Shown: positions 43,894 through 48,026 of the stretch, piece by piece
Layout of the letters: every line of letters starts with the position of its first letter
How positions within the stretch are numbered: the stretch's first letter is position 1
NCBI RefSeq assembly: GCF_016107555.1
Contig: NZ_JABASU010000006.1
Coordinates: forward strand, 62,001-126,000
From: Psychrobacter celer
Lineage (GTDB): Bacteria > Pseudomonadota > Gammaproteobacteria > Pseudomonadales > Moraxellaceae
Reading direction: 5' to 3'
DNA length: 64,000 nucleotides
Notes under the pieces: model-generated
What the model was told of the DNA's origin: nothing
What the model saw: the letters and a program-made list of their open reading frames with translations, nothing else
Database searches by the model: none
Position numbers and translations under genes: made by a program

Positions 43894-44323
43894 TTCGCTG
43901 CATTAAAAGTGTTACTTTGTAAGGATGTCTTGATAGCACCGCTAACAGCGTCCATATAAAGTCATTAATGATAAGCTCGTAGTAGGCATGATGCAGTTTT
44001 TTACTCGTCATGCCTTGTTGTTAAATAATAGCGCTGAAACCATGGCTATTACATAACGTGATGAAATGATGGCGGTCAAACGCCCTCAATCAATAACTGC
44101 TATTACATAAAGTATATTAAATACATGCTGATGACATGATCGTCATCTATCATAAACTGGCCAAACGAGTATTATCGTTTACTCCAGTGGGTAGAGTCGC
44201 TGGATGTCATGATTTATTTCTATTAATAAGCAGATAATACGAGCGTTTTTCTTAAGTTATCAGCAGCCTTAAGAAAAATAGACATTAAGCCCTCCTATAC
44301 ATAACTATACTAAGGTGACTCTT
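43894..44323. other. Intergenic region between rpsB and tsf
   Basis: The 430 bp contain no gene. They hold a hairpin GGCATGA/TCATGCC (43985-44014) that may attenuate rpsB transcription, and an 11-bp inverted repeat close to the tsf start. Confidence 0.5.
44246..44278 (+). promoter_or_regulatory. Leader hairpin upstream of tsf
   Basis: A perfect 11-bp inverted repeat (TTTTTCTTAAG and its complement) around 11 nt, ending 45 bp before the tsf start codon. It could be an mRNA leader structure or a protein-binding site. Confidence 0.45.
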
Positions 44324-45205
44324 ATGACAGAAGTACAAGTATCTGCCAAAATGGTAAAAGAATTGCGAGACCGTACTGGTCTTGGCATGATGGAATGTAA
44401 AAAAGCCCTACAAGAAGCCAATGGTGATGTTGAAGTTGCCATCGATAACTTGCGTAAATCTGGTCAAGCAAAAGCGGCCAAAAAAGCAGGTAACATCGCA
44501 GCTGACGGCGCTATTATCATTGCTCAAGGTGACAATAAAGCGTTTTTGTTAGAAGTAAACTGCCAAACTGACTTTGTGGCAAAAGACGCCAACTTTACTG
44601 CTTTTGCAGAAAAAGTAGCCAACATCGCGCTAGAAAATAACGTCACAGACGTTGCTGCTATCTCTGAGCTACCATATGGCGATGGCCAAACCGTTGAAGA
44701 AGCACGCGTGGCTTTGGTACAAAAAATCGGCGAAAACATTCAGGTGCGCCGTGTAGAAACCCTAGAAGGTGCCAACCTAGCATCATATCGTCACGGTCTA
44801 CGTATCGGTGTTGTGGTATCGTATGAAGGCGGCAGCGAAGAGACTGGCAAAAACCTAGCGATGCATATCGCGGCGTTCAACCCTGTAGCGGTCGACGACG
44901 AAAGCGTTGATGCTGATGTATTGGCTCGCGAAAAAGACATCATCGAAGCCAAAGCCAAAGAGTCTGGCAAGCCTGACAACATCATTGAAAAAATGATCGA
45001 AGGTGGCCTACGTAAATACCTAGACGAAGTCACTCTACTACGTCAGCCATACGTCATGGACAACGACAAAAAAGTTGGCGATGTCCTAAAAGCGGAAGGC
45101 GTAAAAGTACTAAGCTTCAAACGTCTAGAAGTGGGTGAAGGTATCGAGAAAAAGCAAGAAGACTTCGCAGCTGAAGTTGCAGCGGCTCAAGCGGCTAGCA
45201 AGTAA
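44324..45205 (+). CDS. tsf: Translation elongation factor Ts
   Basis: EF-Ts recycles EF-Tu by exchanging GDP. The 293-residue product has the family N-terminus ([19 protein letters not shown], the TDFV-containing segment [15 protein letters not shown]) and the coiled-coil and C-terminal modules. AAGGTG lies six bases before ATG 44324. Codon use is strongly biased, as in highly expressed genes. Its natural terminator has been split by the IS element downstream. Confidence 0.98.
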
Positions 45206-45257
45206 CATCTCTGTGCACTTGCACTGATGAGGACGGTTAAGCCCTTGGTTTTGCCGT

Positions 45258-45278
45258 CAGACACAAAAAAGCCCGTTA
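45258..45278 (+). terminator. Left arm of the tsf terminator, split by an IS element
   Basis: CAGACACAAAAAAGCCCGTTA is the left arm of a hairpin whose right arm, TAACGGGCTTTTTTGTGTCTG, now lies at 46712-46732, beyond the IS. Without the IS the two arms would form a 20-21-bp stem, with the T-run inside it, around a loop of a few bases. Confidence 0.8.
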
Positions 45279-45317
45279 CTCGATATGAACTGACCCCCAA
45301 ATATTGGACGGTTTAGT

Positions 45318-46148
45318 TTAAATCAAGGACTGAGTTCTGTATTGCACAGGACTCAGTCCTTTTAATTTGAGTTGAATACGCTCATTATTGTAATAATGCA
45401 TATACTCATGAATCTGTTGTTCTAACTGCTCAATCGAGTTTGGTTTCTCAATATAGATCGTCTCGCACTTAAGCGTTCCGAAAAACCCCTCCATTAATGC
45501 GTTATCCAAGCAGTTGCCTTTTCTGCTCATGCTTTGCTTAATACCGTGTTGTTTAAGCATCTTACTAAGCGGTCTCATCTGATAATGCCAGCCTTGATCT
45601 GAATGCAGCATTAACCCGTTTTTCTGTTGCGTATCTATCTTATCTAACGCCTTATCTAGCATCTTGCTCACTAAATCATAAGTCGGCCGCTTGGAGAGCG
45701 TATAGCTAATGATCTCATTGTTATAACAATCGAGTATCGGTGATAAATACAGCTTATGATCACCCACCTTAAACTCAGTAATATCGGTCAGCCAGCGTGT
45801 GTTCGGTCGATCTGCATGAAACTGGCGCTTTAAGTAGTTCTTTGCAATCTTGCCTTGTACACCTTTATAAGAGCGGTACCTTTGTCGTCGAATCCGTGCG
45901 CTTAAGTTTAGATGACGCATAAGCTTAGCGATGAGCTTGTGGTTATGATGACTGCCTAACTGCTTTAGCGCTGCCGTTATCCTGCGATAGCCGTACCTGC
46001 CTTTATGCTGGTGATATAGCGTGGCAATACGCTGTTTTAAGTCAGCATGCTTGTCTTTATCACCAAGCTTTGCTCTATGATAGTAAAAGACGCTTTTAGG
46101 CATACCAGCAGCTTTAAGTAGGGCTGTTAAACTGTACTTATTCCTCAA
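45318..46148 (-). CDS. IS3-family transposase OrfB (DDE integrase core)
   Basis: The 276-residue product carries the HTH_21-like N-terminal part (YHQHKGRYGYRRITAAL) and the integrase core with catalytic residues Asp122 (WLTDITEF), Asp184 (LHSDQGWHY) and Glu220 (LMEGFFGTLK). The second Asp and the Glu are 35 residues apart, the classic DD(35)E spacing. The listed start is a TTG at 46148 overlapping the orfA stop. The frame extends further upstream (KARLIEELRN), so the true product is probably an OrfAB fusion made by -1 frameshifting in the A-rich stretch near the orfA end. Confidence 0.93.
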   Translation of the reverse strand: MRNKYSLTALLKAAGMPKSVFYYHRAKLGDKDKHADLKQRIATLYHQHKGRYGYRRITAALKQLGSHHNHKLIAKLMRHLNLSARIRRQRYRSYKGVQGKIAKNYLKRQFHADRPNTRWLTDITEFKVGDHKLYLSPILDCYNNEIISYTLSKRPTYDLVSKMLDKALDKIDTQQKNGLMLHSDQGWHYQMRPLSKMLKQHGIKQSMSRKGNCLDNALMEGFFGTLKCETIYIEKPNSIEQLEQQIHEYMHYYNNERIQLKLKGLSPVQYRTQSLI

Positions 46149-46666
46149 CTCTTCGATGAGCCTTGCTTTCTCAAAGCTTGTTTCCTCTTCTGTTTGAGCA
46201 AAGCATCCAGCTTTTTTAGGTAGGCGTTCTCCGCACGTAGGTATTCATTCTCACGCTTAAGCTCTGCTAAGCTCTTTTCTTCATCTGGCTTGTCTGTGAT
46301 AAAGGGTTTACTCATGGCGGTTTTACCTTTAGGTTTGGGTGTTAGTCCAGACATACCTTGTAGCCGATACGCTTTGTGCCAGTGACTAATAAGCGCCGGT
46401 GAGCTGATGTTATACCTTAAAGCAACTTCCAATTGACTCAAGCCTTGGCTAAGCATCGTTGTAAGCACTTTGTGTTTAAACTCGCGACTATAGTAGGCTT
46501 TGCTGGTCTTTGGTTTGATAGCATCGATACCACCGCTTTGATATTGCTTAACCCATTTAAGAACAAACTTTGGATTTACAGTAAACTTCTTGCTTGTGGC
46601 TCGACTACTATGTCCTTGTTCATAGTATGCGATGACTTGCAGCTTAAAGTCTAGATTATAACGCAT
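46145..46666 (-). CDS. IS3-family transposase OrfA (helix-turn-helix)
   Basis: The 173-residue protein has two helix-turn-helix units (about residues 15-45, SSRATSKKFTVNPKFVLKWVKQY, and 70-100, SQLEVALRYNISSPALISHWHK). A C-terminal leucine-rich coiled coil follows (SLAELKRENEYLRAENAYLKKLDALL). This is the DNA-binding OrfA of IS150-type elements. The A-AAG sequence in the codon pair AGA-AAG before its end is a possible slippage site for making the OrfAB transposase. Confidence 0.9.
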   Translation of the reverse strand: MRYNLDFKLQVIAYYEQGHSSRATSKKFTVNPKFVLKWVKQYQSGGIDAIKPKTSKAYYSREFKHKVLTTMLSQGLSQLEVALRYNISSPALISHWHKAYRLQGMSGLTPKPKGKTAMSKPFITDKPDEEKSLAELKRENEYLRAENAYLKKLDALLKQKRKQALRKQGSSKS

Positions 46667-46711
46667 AAAAATACCCCATAAGTTGTGTCCAACTTATGGG
46701 GTTCGGTTCAA

Positions 46712-46732
46712 TAACGGGCTTTTTTGTGTCTG
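46712..46732 (+). terminator. Right arm of the split tsf terminator
   Basis: TAACGGGCTTTTTTGTGTCTG is the reverse complement of 45258-45278. It now sits 1.4 kb away, beyond the IS, and just after the stop of the convergent lytic transglycosylase gene, for which it was probably also the shared terminator. Confidence 0.75.
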
Positions 46733-46756
46733 AGCTTGACCAACTTTATGGACTTA

Positions 46757-47584
46757 CTAGCGTAAGGCCTCGTAGGCAGATTTGATATAACTTGGGCTGT
46801 TGCTATTACTGCTCGTGCCATAACTGACGTTTTGTAGCCCATTGTTTGTACTGTTCATATTGACTTGGTTGTTGGCATTGATACTGGCACCAGACAGACC
46901 AGCGTCATTTTTGTATAAGCTATGATAGCGGCTCATCACTCTTTTGACATAGTTGCGCGTCTCTTTAAAAGGCGGGATGCCGCCGTATTTATCGACATTG
47001 CCCTCGCCTGCGTTATAGCCTGCCACAGCGTGCTCGACGTTGTTATTAAAACGGCGCATCAGCCAGGCGATGTATTTGGCTGAGCCTTCGATGTTGTCGG
47101 CAGGGTTCCAAGGATTGCCCACATTAAATCGCCGTGCGGTAGCAGGCATCAGCTGCATCAGCCCTTGAGCGCCGACTGGTGAGCGAGCATTTGGATTAAA
47201 AGCCGACTCAGTATGCATCATGGCTTTCATCAGGGCAGGATCGACGCCATGACGTGCCGCGGACGCGCGAATATAGCTATCATAGGCGTTGCGACTGGCA
47301 CTACTACTCGCCGGACTGCTGCCATAGCCGTTGCTGCTGCCGTCATACATCTTAGAATCTTTATAGTAAGTGACTTTGACTTTTTTGGTGAACTTATCAA
47401 AGTTGCCACTGGGGCTAACGTTGGTCAAGAGCACCTGACCGCCTTGGTCTTTGTAGATATACATATTGCCTGCATGAGCACTCACACTCAAGCTTGAGAT
47501 AGCAAGGATACTGGTAACACCAGTGATGGCATTTAATAAAAACGGAGACAAACAGCGAGTCTTGATGGTAGTCGTATTTATCAT
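46757..47584 (-). CDS. Lytic transglycosylase, SLT domain
   Basis: The exported enzyme cleaves peptidoglycan between MurNAc and GlcNAc. From ATG 47584 the protein has 275 residues: a signal peptide (about residues 1-38, ending SAHA), a DUF4124-like segment (MYIYKDQGGQVLLTNVSP), a Ser/Gly-rich linker, and the SLT catalytic domain. This domain has the catalytic Glu in MMHTESAFNPNARSPVGAQG, then LMQLMPATARRFNV and AVAGYNAGEGNVDKYGGIPP. A longer frame (to 47716) has no signal at its start, so I prefer the internal ATG. It is convergent with tsf. Confidence 0.93.
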   Translation of the reverse strand: MINTTTIKTRCLSPFLLNAITGVTSILAISSLSVSAHAGNMYIYKDQGGQVLLTNVSPSGNFDKFTKKVKVTYYKDSKMYDGSSNGYGSSPASSSASRNAYDSYIRASAARHGVDPALMKAMMHTESAFNPNARSPVGAQGLMQLMPATARRFNVGNPWNPADNIEGSAKYIAWLMRRFNNNVEHAVAGYNAGEGNVDKYGGIPPFKETRNYVKRVMSRYHSLYKNDAGLSGASINANNQVNMNSTNNGLQNVSYGTSSNSNSPSYIKSAYEALR

Positions 47585-48026
47585 AGAGATATCACTTTTT
47601 ATCGAGTAGTCGCAAATGACTGTCGCTGATGAGTCGGCCAGCTTATAAAGGCAAGTGCTTATTTTATCTGCCGTGTTTTGTCGCCAGCTACCTAGCAACG
47701 ACCCTGACGTCTTCATGTTTCGTTAAGATCATTTGCAATAGATACAAAAAATAATAGTTGTTTACTATAACATATAATAACTTTTTGACGCATGGGATTG
47801 TCAAAATAATAAGAAAAAGTGAGCATTATTTTGTAAATAATACGAAATAAATCAATAAGCTATCATTTGCAGTGTACGCATTTCAGTGTCAGCTCAGCTG
47901 CCGCAAGGGCTCATGGTGGTAGTAAGTGGCTATGATAAGAGTGTAGGAACGGTGTAATAAGAGCAAGAGGATAAGAGCGGCTAATGCTTTGAGCTTGTCT
48001 TTAATTGATGAGAGGTCAGGGGGTAG
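47585..48026. other. Intergenic region upstream of the transglycosylase gene
   Basis: No gene is visible in 442 bp. The part at 47740-47870 is very AT-rich and should contain the transglycosylase promoter. No clear terminator for lrgB was found. Confidence 0.4.

Follow-up and report, generated by a model that had tools for sequence, protein, structure and literature searches.

Why does an insertion sequence (IS) lie between the two arms of the hairpin that follows tsf? The locus belongs to a window of 64,000 nucleotides of Psychrobacter celer (contig NZ_JABASU010000006.1, positions 62,001 to 126,000), which is the whole stretch of DNA analysed here. The original prediction was that an IS3-family element had entered the loop of a terminator shared by tsf and the convergent transglycosylase gene, and that it had either chosen terminator structure as its target or been tolerated at such a site.

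The element and the terminator that it splits

The features of the locus are listed in Table 1. The ends of the inserted element read TGAACTGACCCC at 45286 and GGGGTTCGGTTCA at 46710, and its open reading frames match IS3-family profiles, which bears out the proposed family. Judged from the sequence, it has the features looked for in that family: a DDE-type OrfB, a helix-turn-helix OrfA joined to it by a predicted -1 frameshift, TG...CA ends, and a duplication within the range of 3–4 bp. OrfB residues D122, D184 and E220 are invariant in the sequences of 16 relatives, with 35 residues separating D184 and E220. The duplication of ATA at both borders was confirmed. A single copy of the IS was detected in its own draft genome (73 contigs).

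Table 1. Coordinates of the features at the tsf locus (positions within the window)
Feature	Position	Strand	Remarks
tsf, elongation factor Ts	44324..45205	+	TIGR00116; ORF opens at 44315, ATG at 44324
Left arm of split tsf terminator (A-tract and G+C arm)	45257..45278	+	22 nt, 100% complementary to right arm
Target duplication ATA, left copy	45283..45285
IS3-family, IS150-like IS	45286..46710	- (transposase strand)	1425 bp; TG...CA ends, 3-bp duplication, profile matches
Terminal inverted repeat, element 3' end	45286..45298	+	TGAACTGACCCCC
OrfB, DDE integrase core (rve)	45318..46148	-	276 aa; PF00665, NF033516 above cut-off
Inward-facing terminator-like hairpin, IS 3' end	45325..45361	+	16 bp, -25.1 kcal/mol, then TTAATTTG
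OrfA	46145..46666	-	173 aa; two helix-turn-helix regions, HTH_28 and HTH_Tnp_1
A6G slippery heptamer	46211..46217	-	-1 shift gives joined OrfA-OrfB frame of 449 aa (predicted frameshift)
Inward-facing terminator-like hairpin, IS 5' end	46673..46702	-	13 bp, -21.2 kcal/mol, then ATTTTTAT
Terminal inverted repeat, element 5' end	46698..46710	-	TGAACCGAACCCC
Target duplication ATA, right copy	46711..46713		overlaps first two bases of right terminator arm
Right arm of split terminator (G+C arm and T-tract)	46712..46733	+	22 nt
Convergent lytic transglycosylase gene	46757..47716	-	SLT domain

The arms on either side of the element are perfect inverted repeats, as had been proposed, and are one pair longer than the 45258-45278 and 46712-46732 given originally. 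When the flanks are joined to restore the empty site, they fold into a 22-bp stem with the loop CTCGA (-34.9 kcal/mol, z = -10.0), a stability equalled by none of 200 shuffled sequences. This fold agrees with the proposal of a two-way terminator common to tsf and the convergent gene. The duplicated ATA comprises the last base of the loop and the top two bases of the stem, and the element therefore cut at the shoulder of the loop. The proposed insertion into the loop thus holds in part: the insertion is at or near the loop, but here it is at the shoulder, and in the long hairpins of close relatives it is often within the stem.

The reconstruction depended on relatives without the IS having the hairpin intact. 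The tsf gene was found in 59 of the 60 Psychrobacter genomes searched, and the region after it was read in 29 relatives. An intact hairpin is present 3' of tsf in 21 of these (20 within about 155 nt of the stop codon, and one recognised by pattern), and was not found in the other eight within the stretch read. Its layout is an A-tract, an arm, a loop, the complementary arm and a T-tract, the arms being for example GCCCGTTA/TAACGGGC or GCCCATTA/TAATGGGC.

A different hairpin, without tracts and of the type GGTGAGTGCTAA...TTTGGTACTCAC, follows tsf in several Psychrobacter genomes (loci L374, L377–L379, L383 and L384). It is perhaps a genus-specific repeat.

A separate element, 70% identical to that of the window, sits in the tsf terminator of another genome, in the opposite orientation. 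These are two separate hits on one conserved terminator.

Insertion sites of related elements

At least a short match to the IS is present in 86 of 105 Psychrobacter genomes (its own included), where no more than three candidates were scored in each; a second search of 22 genomes scored more of them. Forty copies having two ends were taken from 19 genomes. They are 70–91% identical to that of the window, and two (L070 and L071) are interrupted. By eye, nearly all 40 are flanked by an A-tract and a G+C arm on one side, and by a G+C arm and a T-tract on the other. A fixed rule was applied, consisting of an enclosing stem of at least 7 pairs, of which at least 3 are G-C, an A-tract to the left and a T-tract to the right. 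Such a structure was found at 29 of 40 sites (these copies and that of the window, less L032 for its short flank), compared with 222 of 19417 intergenic positions (1.1%) in 400 kb from five genomes.

A second comparison used control positions from the same loci. Here the ends were set automatically and three of the 40 copies were dropped for their ends or a short flank, giving 37 usable copies, with the window excluded. Terminator-like hairpins enclose 35 of them, against 132 of 2220 control positions (5.9%), and the strict combination of A-tract, stem and T-tract encloses 32, against 10 of 2220 (0.45%), the thresholds of the classifier having been fixed after the first junctions were seen and differing slightly between analyses. 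The copies are related and some are identical, so that these counts are not independent, and all of the evidence consists of finished insertions. The two misses, L040 and L051, are palindromes that fail on the tracts or on the number of G-C pairs. Hairpins at the sites of other copies were what the original prediction proposed to look for, and their presence in 35 of the 37 speaks for target choice rather than tolerance.

Six copies in one genome are 100% identical to each other, and are therefore recent insertions; they occupy six different terminators, all of the strict type. It is this same genome that carries the 70%-identical element in its tsf terminator. Assemblies that are complete or nearly so, G005, G089 and G012 among them, show the same pattern of insertion. 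Eight related copies in G113 were all left out of the counts: by eye about four have complementary arms, and L134 and L138 have a 3-bp match and no clear terminator. The flanks of L135 and L137, also in G113, are unmatched and non-complementary, as if exchanged by recombination between copies.

Six other IS3 elements of the window's own genome were tried as a negative control. Candidate ends were obtained for two, of which L397 alone had the size of an element, and on inspection no hairpin encloses it. Because a single element-sized case was obtained, IS150 of E. coli was used as a contrast. The nine loci inspected represent seven distinct sites, of which none is strict, one is loosely terminator-like (inside gltL), and at least two are in genes.

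The genes neighbouring the 37 Psychrobacter sites, as called by script, are convergent at 25 and co-directional at 12, and at no site are they divergent. In control DNA, 42 of 243 spacers are convergent, as are 29 of the 65 spacers that have a two-way terminator. Two-way terminators account for 32 of the 35 terminator-like sites, compared with 65 of 149 terminator-bearing spacers in 400 kb (p = 1e-7), where the rule used for spacers is slightly different from that used for sites and its one-tract class may contain false positives. The orientation of the element to the upstream gene shows no clear bias at the 12 co-directional sites (8 against 4).

The exact insertion point was analysed in 21 close copies with a duplication, both tracts and an OrfB identity of at least about 80%. 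In 14 of these the duplication is exactly 6 bp from the nearer tract; a null model of uniform placement between the tracts gave a mean of 2.9, and none of 5000 simulations was as high, the spacing having been noticed in the same data that tested it. The spacing also holds for long stems whose loop is far off. No other lineage alone shows a significant peak at 6 bp. Twenty one-sided ends from draft assemblies lay outside this test and were counted by eye, assuming a 3-bp duplication. Eleven of them (G014, G030, G032, G035, G041) gave 6, 6, 6, 6, 7, 7 and 11 and four far values of 15–19, for which the other side was mostly unread. Among the nine from G037, the distance was 11 in six cases and 12, 13 and 6 in the others.

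Strict insertion into the loop was considered as a general rule and rejected, since in close relatives with long hairpins the stem is often hit, at 6 bp from a tract. The loop thus describes the insertion point fairly well without being the rule: because the arms are short, a point 6 bp inside the tract is at or near the loop.

Outside Psychrobacter, the Moraxellaceae provided 39 loci. The rule classified 6 of 21 usable copies as terminator-like, and by eye, elements of several genera with 50–60% OrfB identity are in terminators (for example L102–L105, L107, L108, L113, L125, L126 and L131). Thirteen of the 15 misses form one sister group, with flanks that resemble each other.

This sister lineage (L114–L123 and L128–L130, in G200, G165, G204, G263 and G290; about 54% OrfB identity) has one kind of repeated structure as its site. 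C4 antisense RNA, which is known from phage immunity, matches four of five sister-lineage loci tested and all three empty sites (Rfam model RF01695). The insertion is close to the 5' end of the matched region and, by eye, separates the arms CCCTCCCG and CGGGAG. G200 contains six copies of the structure interrupted by an IS, and seven pattern matches without one.

Sampling 369 genomes across the class yielded eight copies outside the window's genome; six of the seven usable ones are terminator-like. Named genomes supplied 80 loci, 34 of which were dropped because their ends could not be set. Among the 46 usable, 29 are terminator-like against 136 of 2733 controls, and 23 are strict against 17 of 2733; five of the 80 loci (L196–L199 and L210), four of them among the 46, are on contigs that, judged by their length, had already been used in the other sets. 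The terminator-like copies include those of Cupriavidus, Burkholderia, Halomonas, Kluyvera, Kosakonia, Bacillus, Paenibacillus, Clostridia and Bacteroidales, and the terminator habit recurs in other Proteobacteria, in Bacillota and in Bacteroidota. Viral contigs added 80 loci, with 39 of 51 usable copies terminator-like and 18 strict. The misses outside Psychrobacter include REP-like palindromes in Pseudomonas and the PU of Klebsiella; L127 and L186 have no G+C hairpin, and L239 and L271 have no convincing one.

At L110–L112 (G135 and G143) related copies are beside or between copies of the motif GATAGTGCCCACT, possibly the ends of another mobile element; L110 has a long perfect inverted repeat. 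On viral contigs, one lineage (L284–L298) is found repeatedly in GAGGGGC / GCCCCTC palindromes, often adjacent to the motif TATGTACnGCCCCTC, perhaps a host repeat family.

An OrfB tree was made from 104 entries, 67 of them labelled; it is unrooted and contains IS150-like elements, without other IS3 groups as outgroup. Elements inserted in terminators occur throughout the tree, and those found in palindromes alone, ISKpn1 included, are nested within it in several places; on supported branches the terminator label changes at least eight times. Kosakonia and Shimwellia elements, which are sisters of ISKpn1, are in terminators. IS150 lies inside the sampled set, and the split of its half from that of the window's element is weak (72/82) in this tree without an outgroup.

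Carried hairpins and target choice

The element carries a terminator-like hairpin at each end, facing inwards. The 5' hairpin (46702-46673) ends just before the start of OrfA and faces transcription from the transglycosylase gene, while the 3' hairpin lies within the last codons of OrfB and faces transcription from tsf. The sequence is in keeping with the earlier suggestion that tsf may now rely on the IS for its termination, as tsf transcription would meet a 16-bp hairpin with a T-rich tail at 45325-45361. Each of the two hairpins is present in 37 of 37 usable Psychrobacter copies. In the 68 tested elements that sit in terminators (35 from Psychrobacter, 6 from other Moraxellaceae and 27 from named genomes; identical copies are included, and not all are independent), both hairpins were found every time, with T-rich tails, compared with 5 of 101 random internal segments having one hairpin.

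Elements outside terminators have them less regularly. The 5' hairpin is present in 2 of 2 from Psychrobacter, 1 of 15 from other Moraxellaceae and 8 of 16 from named genomes, and the 3' hairpin in 2 of 2, 2 of 15 and 9 of 16, respectively. In the tree set, both hairpins are found in 44 of 44 terminator-inserted elements against 8 of 21 others. Phylogenetically independent pairs gave about 3 to 0 in one direction (p ~0.25), which is too few pairs.

For the 3' hairpin, covariation was analysed across 34 elements. Standard pairs make up 94.4% of the base-pair cells, and 53 cells are doubly changed; shuffled sets gave 19.7 such cells and slid controls no more than 12. Because the cells covary, the pairing itself appears to be under selection, although the same bases encode OrfB. 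By eye, the C-terminal residues of IS150-like transposases vary with the hairpin, as GLS..TQS, GLS..TQA or GMS..THA (45325-45361 in the window, and relatives among L102–L274).

The insertion sites, their controls, the spacing, the carried hairpins and their covariation are read directly from the sequence. On the basis of these observations we consider it highly probable that many members of this branch, the IS of the window included, choose the palindrome of a Rho-independent terminator as their target, and replace the broken terminator by the hairpins that they carry. The window's IS would be a member of a widespread branch of IS150-like IS3 elements, many of which choose such terminators. 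By analogy with the report on IS1397 and ISKpn1, the transposase would be the agent that recognises the site, and would read the palindrome in DNA, rather than in RNA or through a paused polymerase, as A-tract, G+C arm, inner part, G+C arm and T-tract. Preferred targets would be the two-way terminators between convergent genes. In close relatives, insertion would generate a 3–4 bp duplication, most often 6 bp inside one tract, at or near the loop. The host terminator would be split by this event, and the element would supply two terminator-like hairpins, one inward at each end, so that each neighbouring gene regains a stop. We infer that these hairpins terminate transcription in the cell: tsf transcription would stop at about 45361-45370 and that of the transglycosylase gene just before OrfA, and read-through into the transposase gene, or antisense to it, would be blocked. 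As all 68 tested elements carry inward hairpins, insertion probably leaves two one-way terminators in place of the single two-way one of the host. By sitting in a terminator and bringing its own hairpins, the element would do little harm on landing between genes.

Wide insertion, with survival only in harmless intergenic places, would fit the lack of copies between divergent genes (0 of 37 sites, against 25 convergent and 12 co-directional). Survival of this kind does not lead one to expect an exact spacing from the tract, nor does it account for identical, hence recent, copies in six different terminators, or for a structure at 29 of 40 copies that only 1.1% of intergenic positions possess. 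Moreover E. coli IS150, on the same supported branch as ISKpn1, has 0 of 7 sites strict, 1 of 7 loose and at least two in genes. Target choice is thus strongly supported, and tolerance alone is very unlikely. That the window's insertion is a chance event at a single site, or an artefact of assembly, might be suspected from the single copy in its own draft genome, but this idea has a negligible probability in view of the intact open reading frames, the matching terminal repeats and duplication, and the recurrence of the pattern in G005, G089 and G012. For the window site it was rejected on the empty sites in 21 of 29 relatives and on the other copies.

What the transposase reads is a separate matter. 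It could be a sequence half-site, an A-tract followed by a G+C stretch, with the hairpin incidental, and the duplication that lies 6 bp inside one tract in 14 of 21 closer relatives, whatever the length of the stem, would suit this. However, only 60 of 638 such half-sites in 400 kb (genic DNA included) are in a hairpin with a T-tract, as against 31 of 31 tested sites, which were preselected for both tracts (among 32 copies with a duplication that were not so preselected, 29 are strict), and we therefore hold a half-site reading to be improbable. We judge it similarly unlikely that the act of termination, through a paused polymerase, an RNA hairpin or an R-loop, directs the element in place of the DNA palindrome. 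The targets do look like functional terminators and are downstream of at least one gene; against this, two-way palindromes are preferred (32 of 35 compared with 65 of 149), the 12 co-directional sites have no clear orientation bias to the upstream gene, and sister lineages use PU, REP-like and C4-RNA palindromes that have no tracts, which fits a reader of palindromes.

Recognition of the palindrome in DNA, the reading that we prefer, can be extended to the history of the group, in a form that is tentative and that we lean slightly against. Terminator targeting might be ancestral in the whole IS150-like branch, with the REP/PU specialists (ISKpn1 and the Pseudomonas elements) and the C4-RNA specialists of Moraxellaceae as later narrowings. 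The elements might then be described as terminator-replacement transposons, which break up one two-way terminator and put two one-way terminators in its place, and having to keep a terminator in the last codons may have shaped the C terminus of the transposase.

If target choice is as proposed, a large branch of DNA transposons, found in at least three phyla, would have a general safe harbour in intrinsic terminators, which are abundant in bacteria. The spread of such elements without damage to genes would then be easier to understand, and there would be a simple cut-site rule for a transposase, a palindrome plus a tract, with a 6-bp offset in one lineage. It raises the concrete question of how a DDE transposase reads a palindrome, for which the terminator, REP/PU and C4-RNA targets would form a natural contrast inside one protein family. 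Genome annotation would also be affected, since IS ends may supply some genes with their 3' ends.

Comparison with known systems

Two IS3-family elements of the IS150 group, ISKpn1 and IS1397, insert in the loop of PU. REP sequences of K. pneumoniae and E. coli have been described as their insertion sites, and target specificity as apparently due to their transposases (PMC1525189). The window's IS resembles them, as there described, in its family and in its insertion inside an intergenic palindrome. ISKpn1 falls on the same OrfB tree, and L222, whose OrfB is identical, carries both inward hairpins. The difference lies in the targets, which for ISKpn1 and IS1397 are particular repeated sequence families, whereas those of the window's IS are sequence-diverse terminators of a common layout: by eye, the target arms differ between sites, unlike those of a repeat family, and share the arrangement of A-tract, stem and T-tract. 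The OrfB of E. coli IS150 groups on the tree with ISKpn1 and its terminator-inserted sisters, but its sites differ, none of the seven being strict.

ISPpu9, ISPpu10 and ISPa11 are members of the IS110 family. REP palindromes are the targets of these three and of ISRm19 and ISRm22, and the targets reported are REP and not terminators, unlike those of the window's IS (PMC1525189). The same text describes ISPsy8, an IS3-family element of Pseudomonas syringae, all five copies of which, with 3-bp repeats, interrupt a REP where a probable hairpin has its axis of symmetry (PMC1525189). As described there, ISPsy8 differs from the window's IS in having one repeat family, a fixed point and no terminators.

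REP targeting by IS3 elements is therefore already in print. Among the open-library papers listed, judged by title and start of abstract, none was found to describe intrinsic terminators as a target that IS elements use in general; within that scope, such targeting looks new.

The use of Rho-independent terminators as a place of limited harm has been described for group IIC (bacterial class C) introns (PMC8919778). These are retroelements that insert immediately after the terminator. The IS of the window has neither a reverse transcriptase nor a position after the terminator: as a DDE transposon, it interrupts the hairpin itself and brings along further hairpins.
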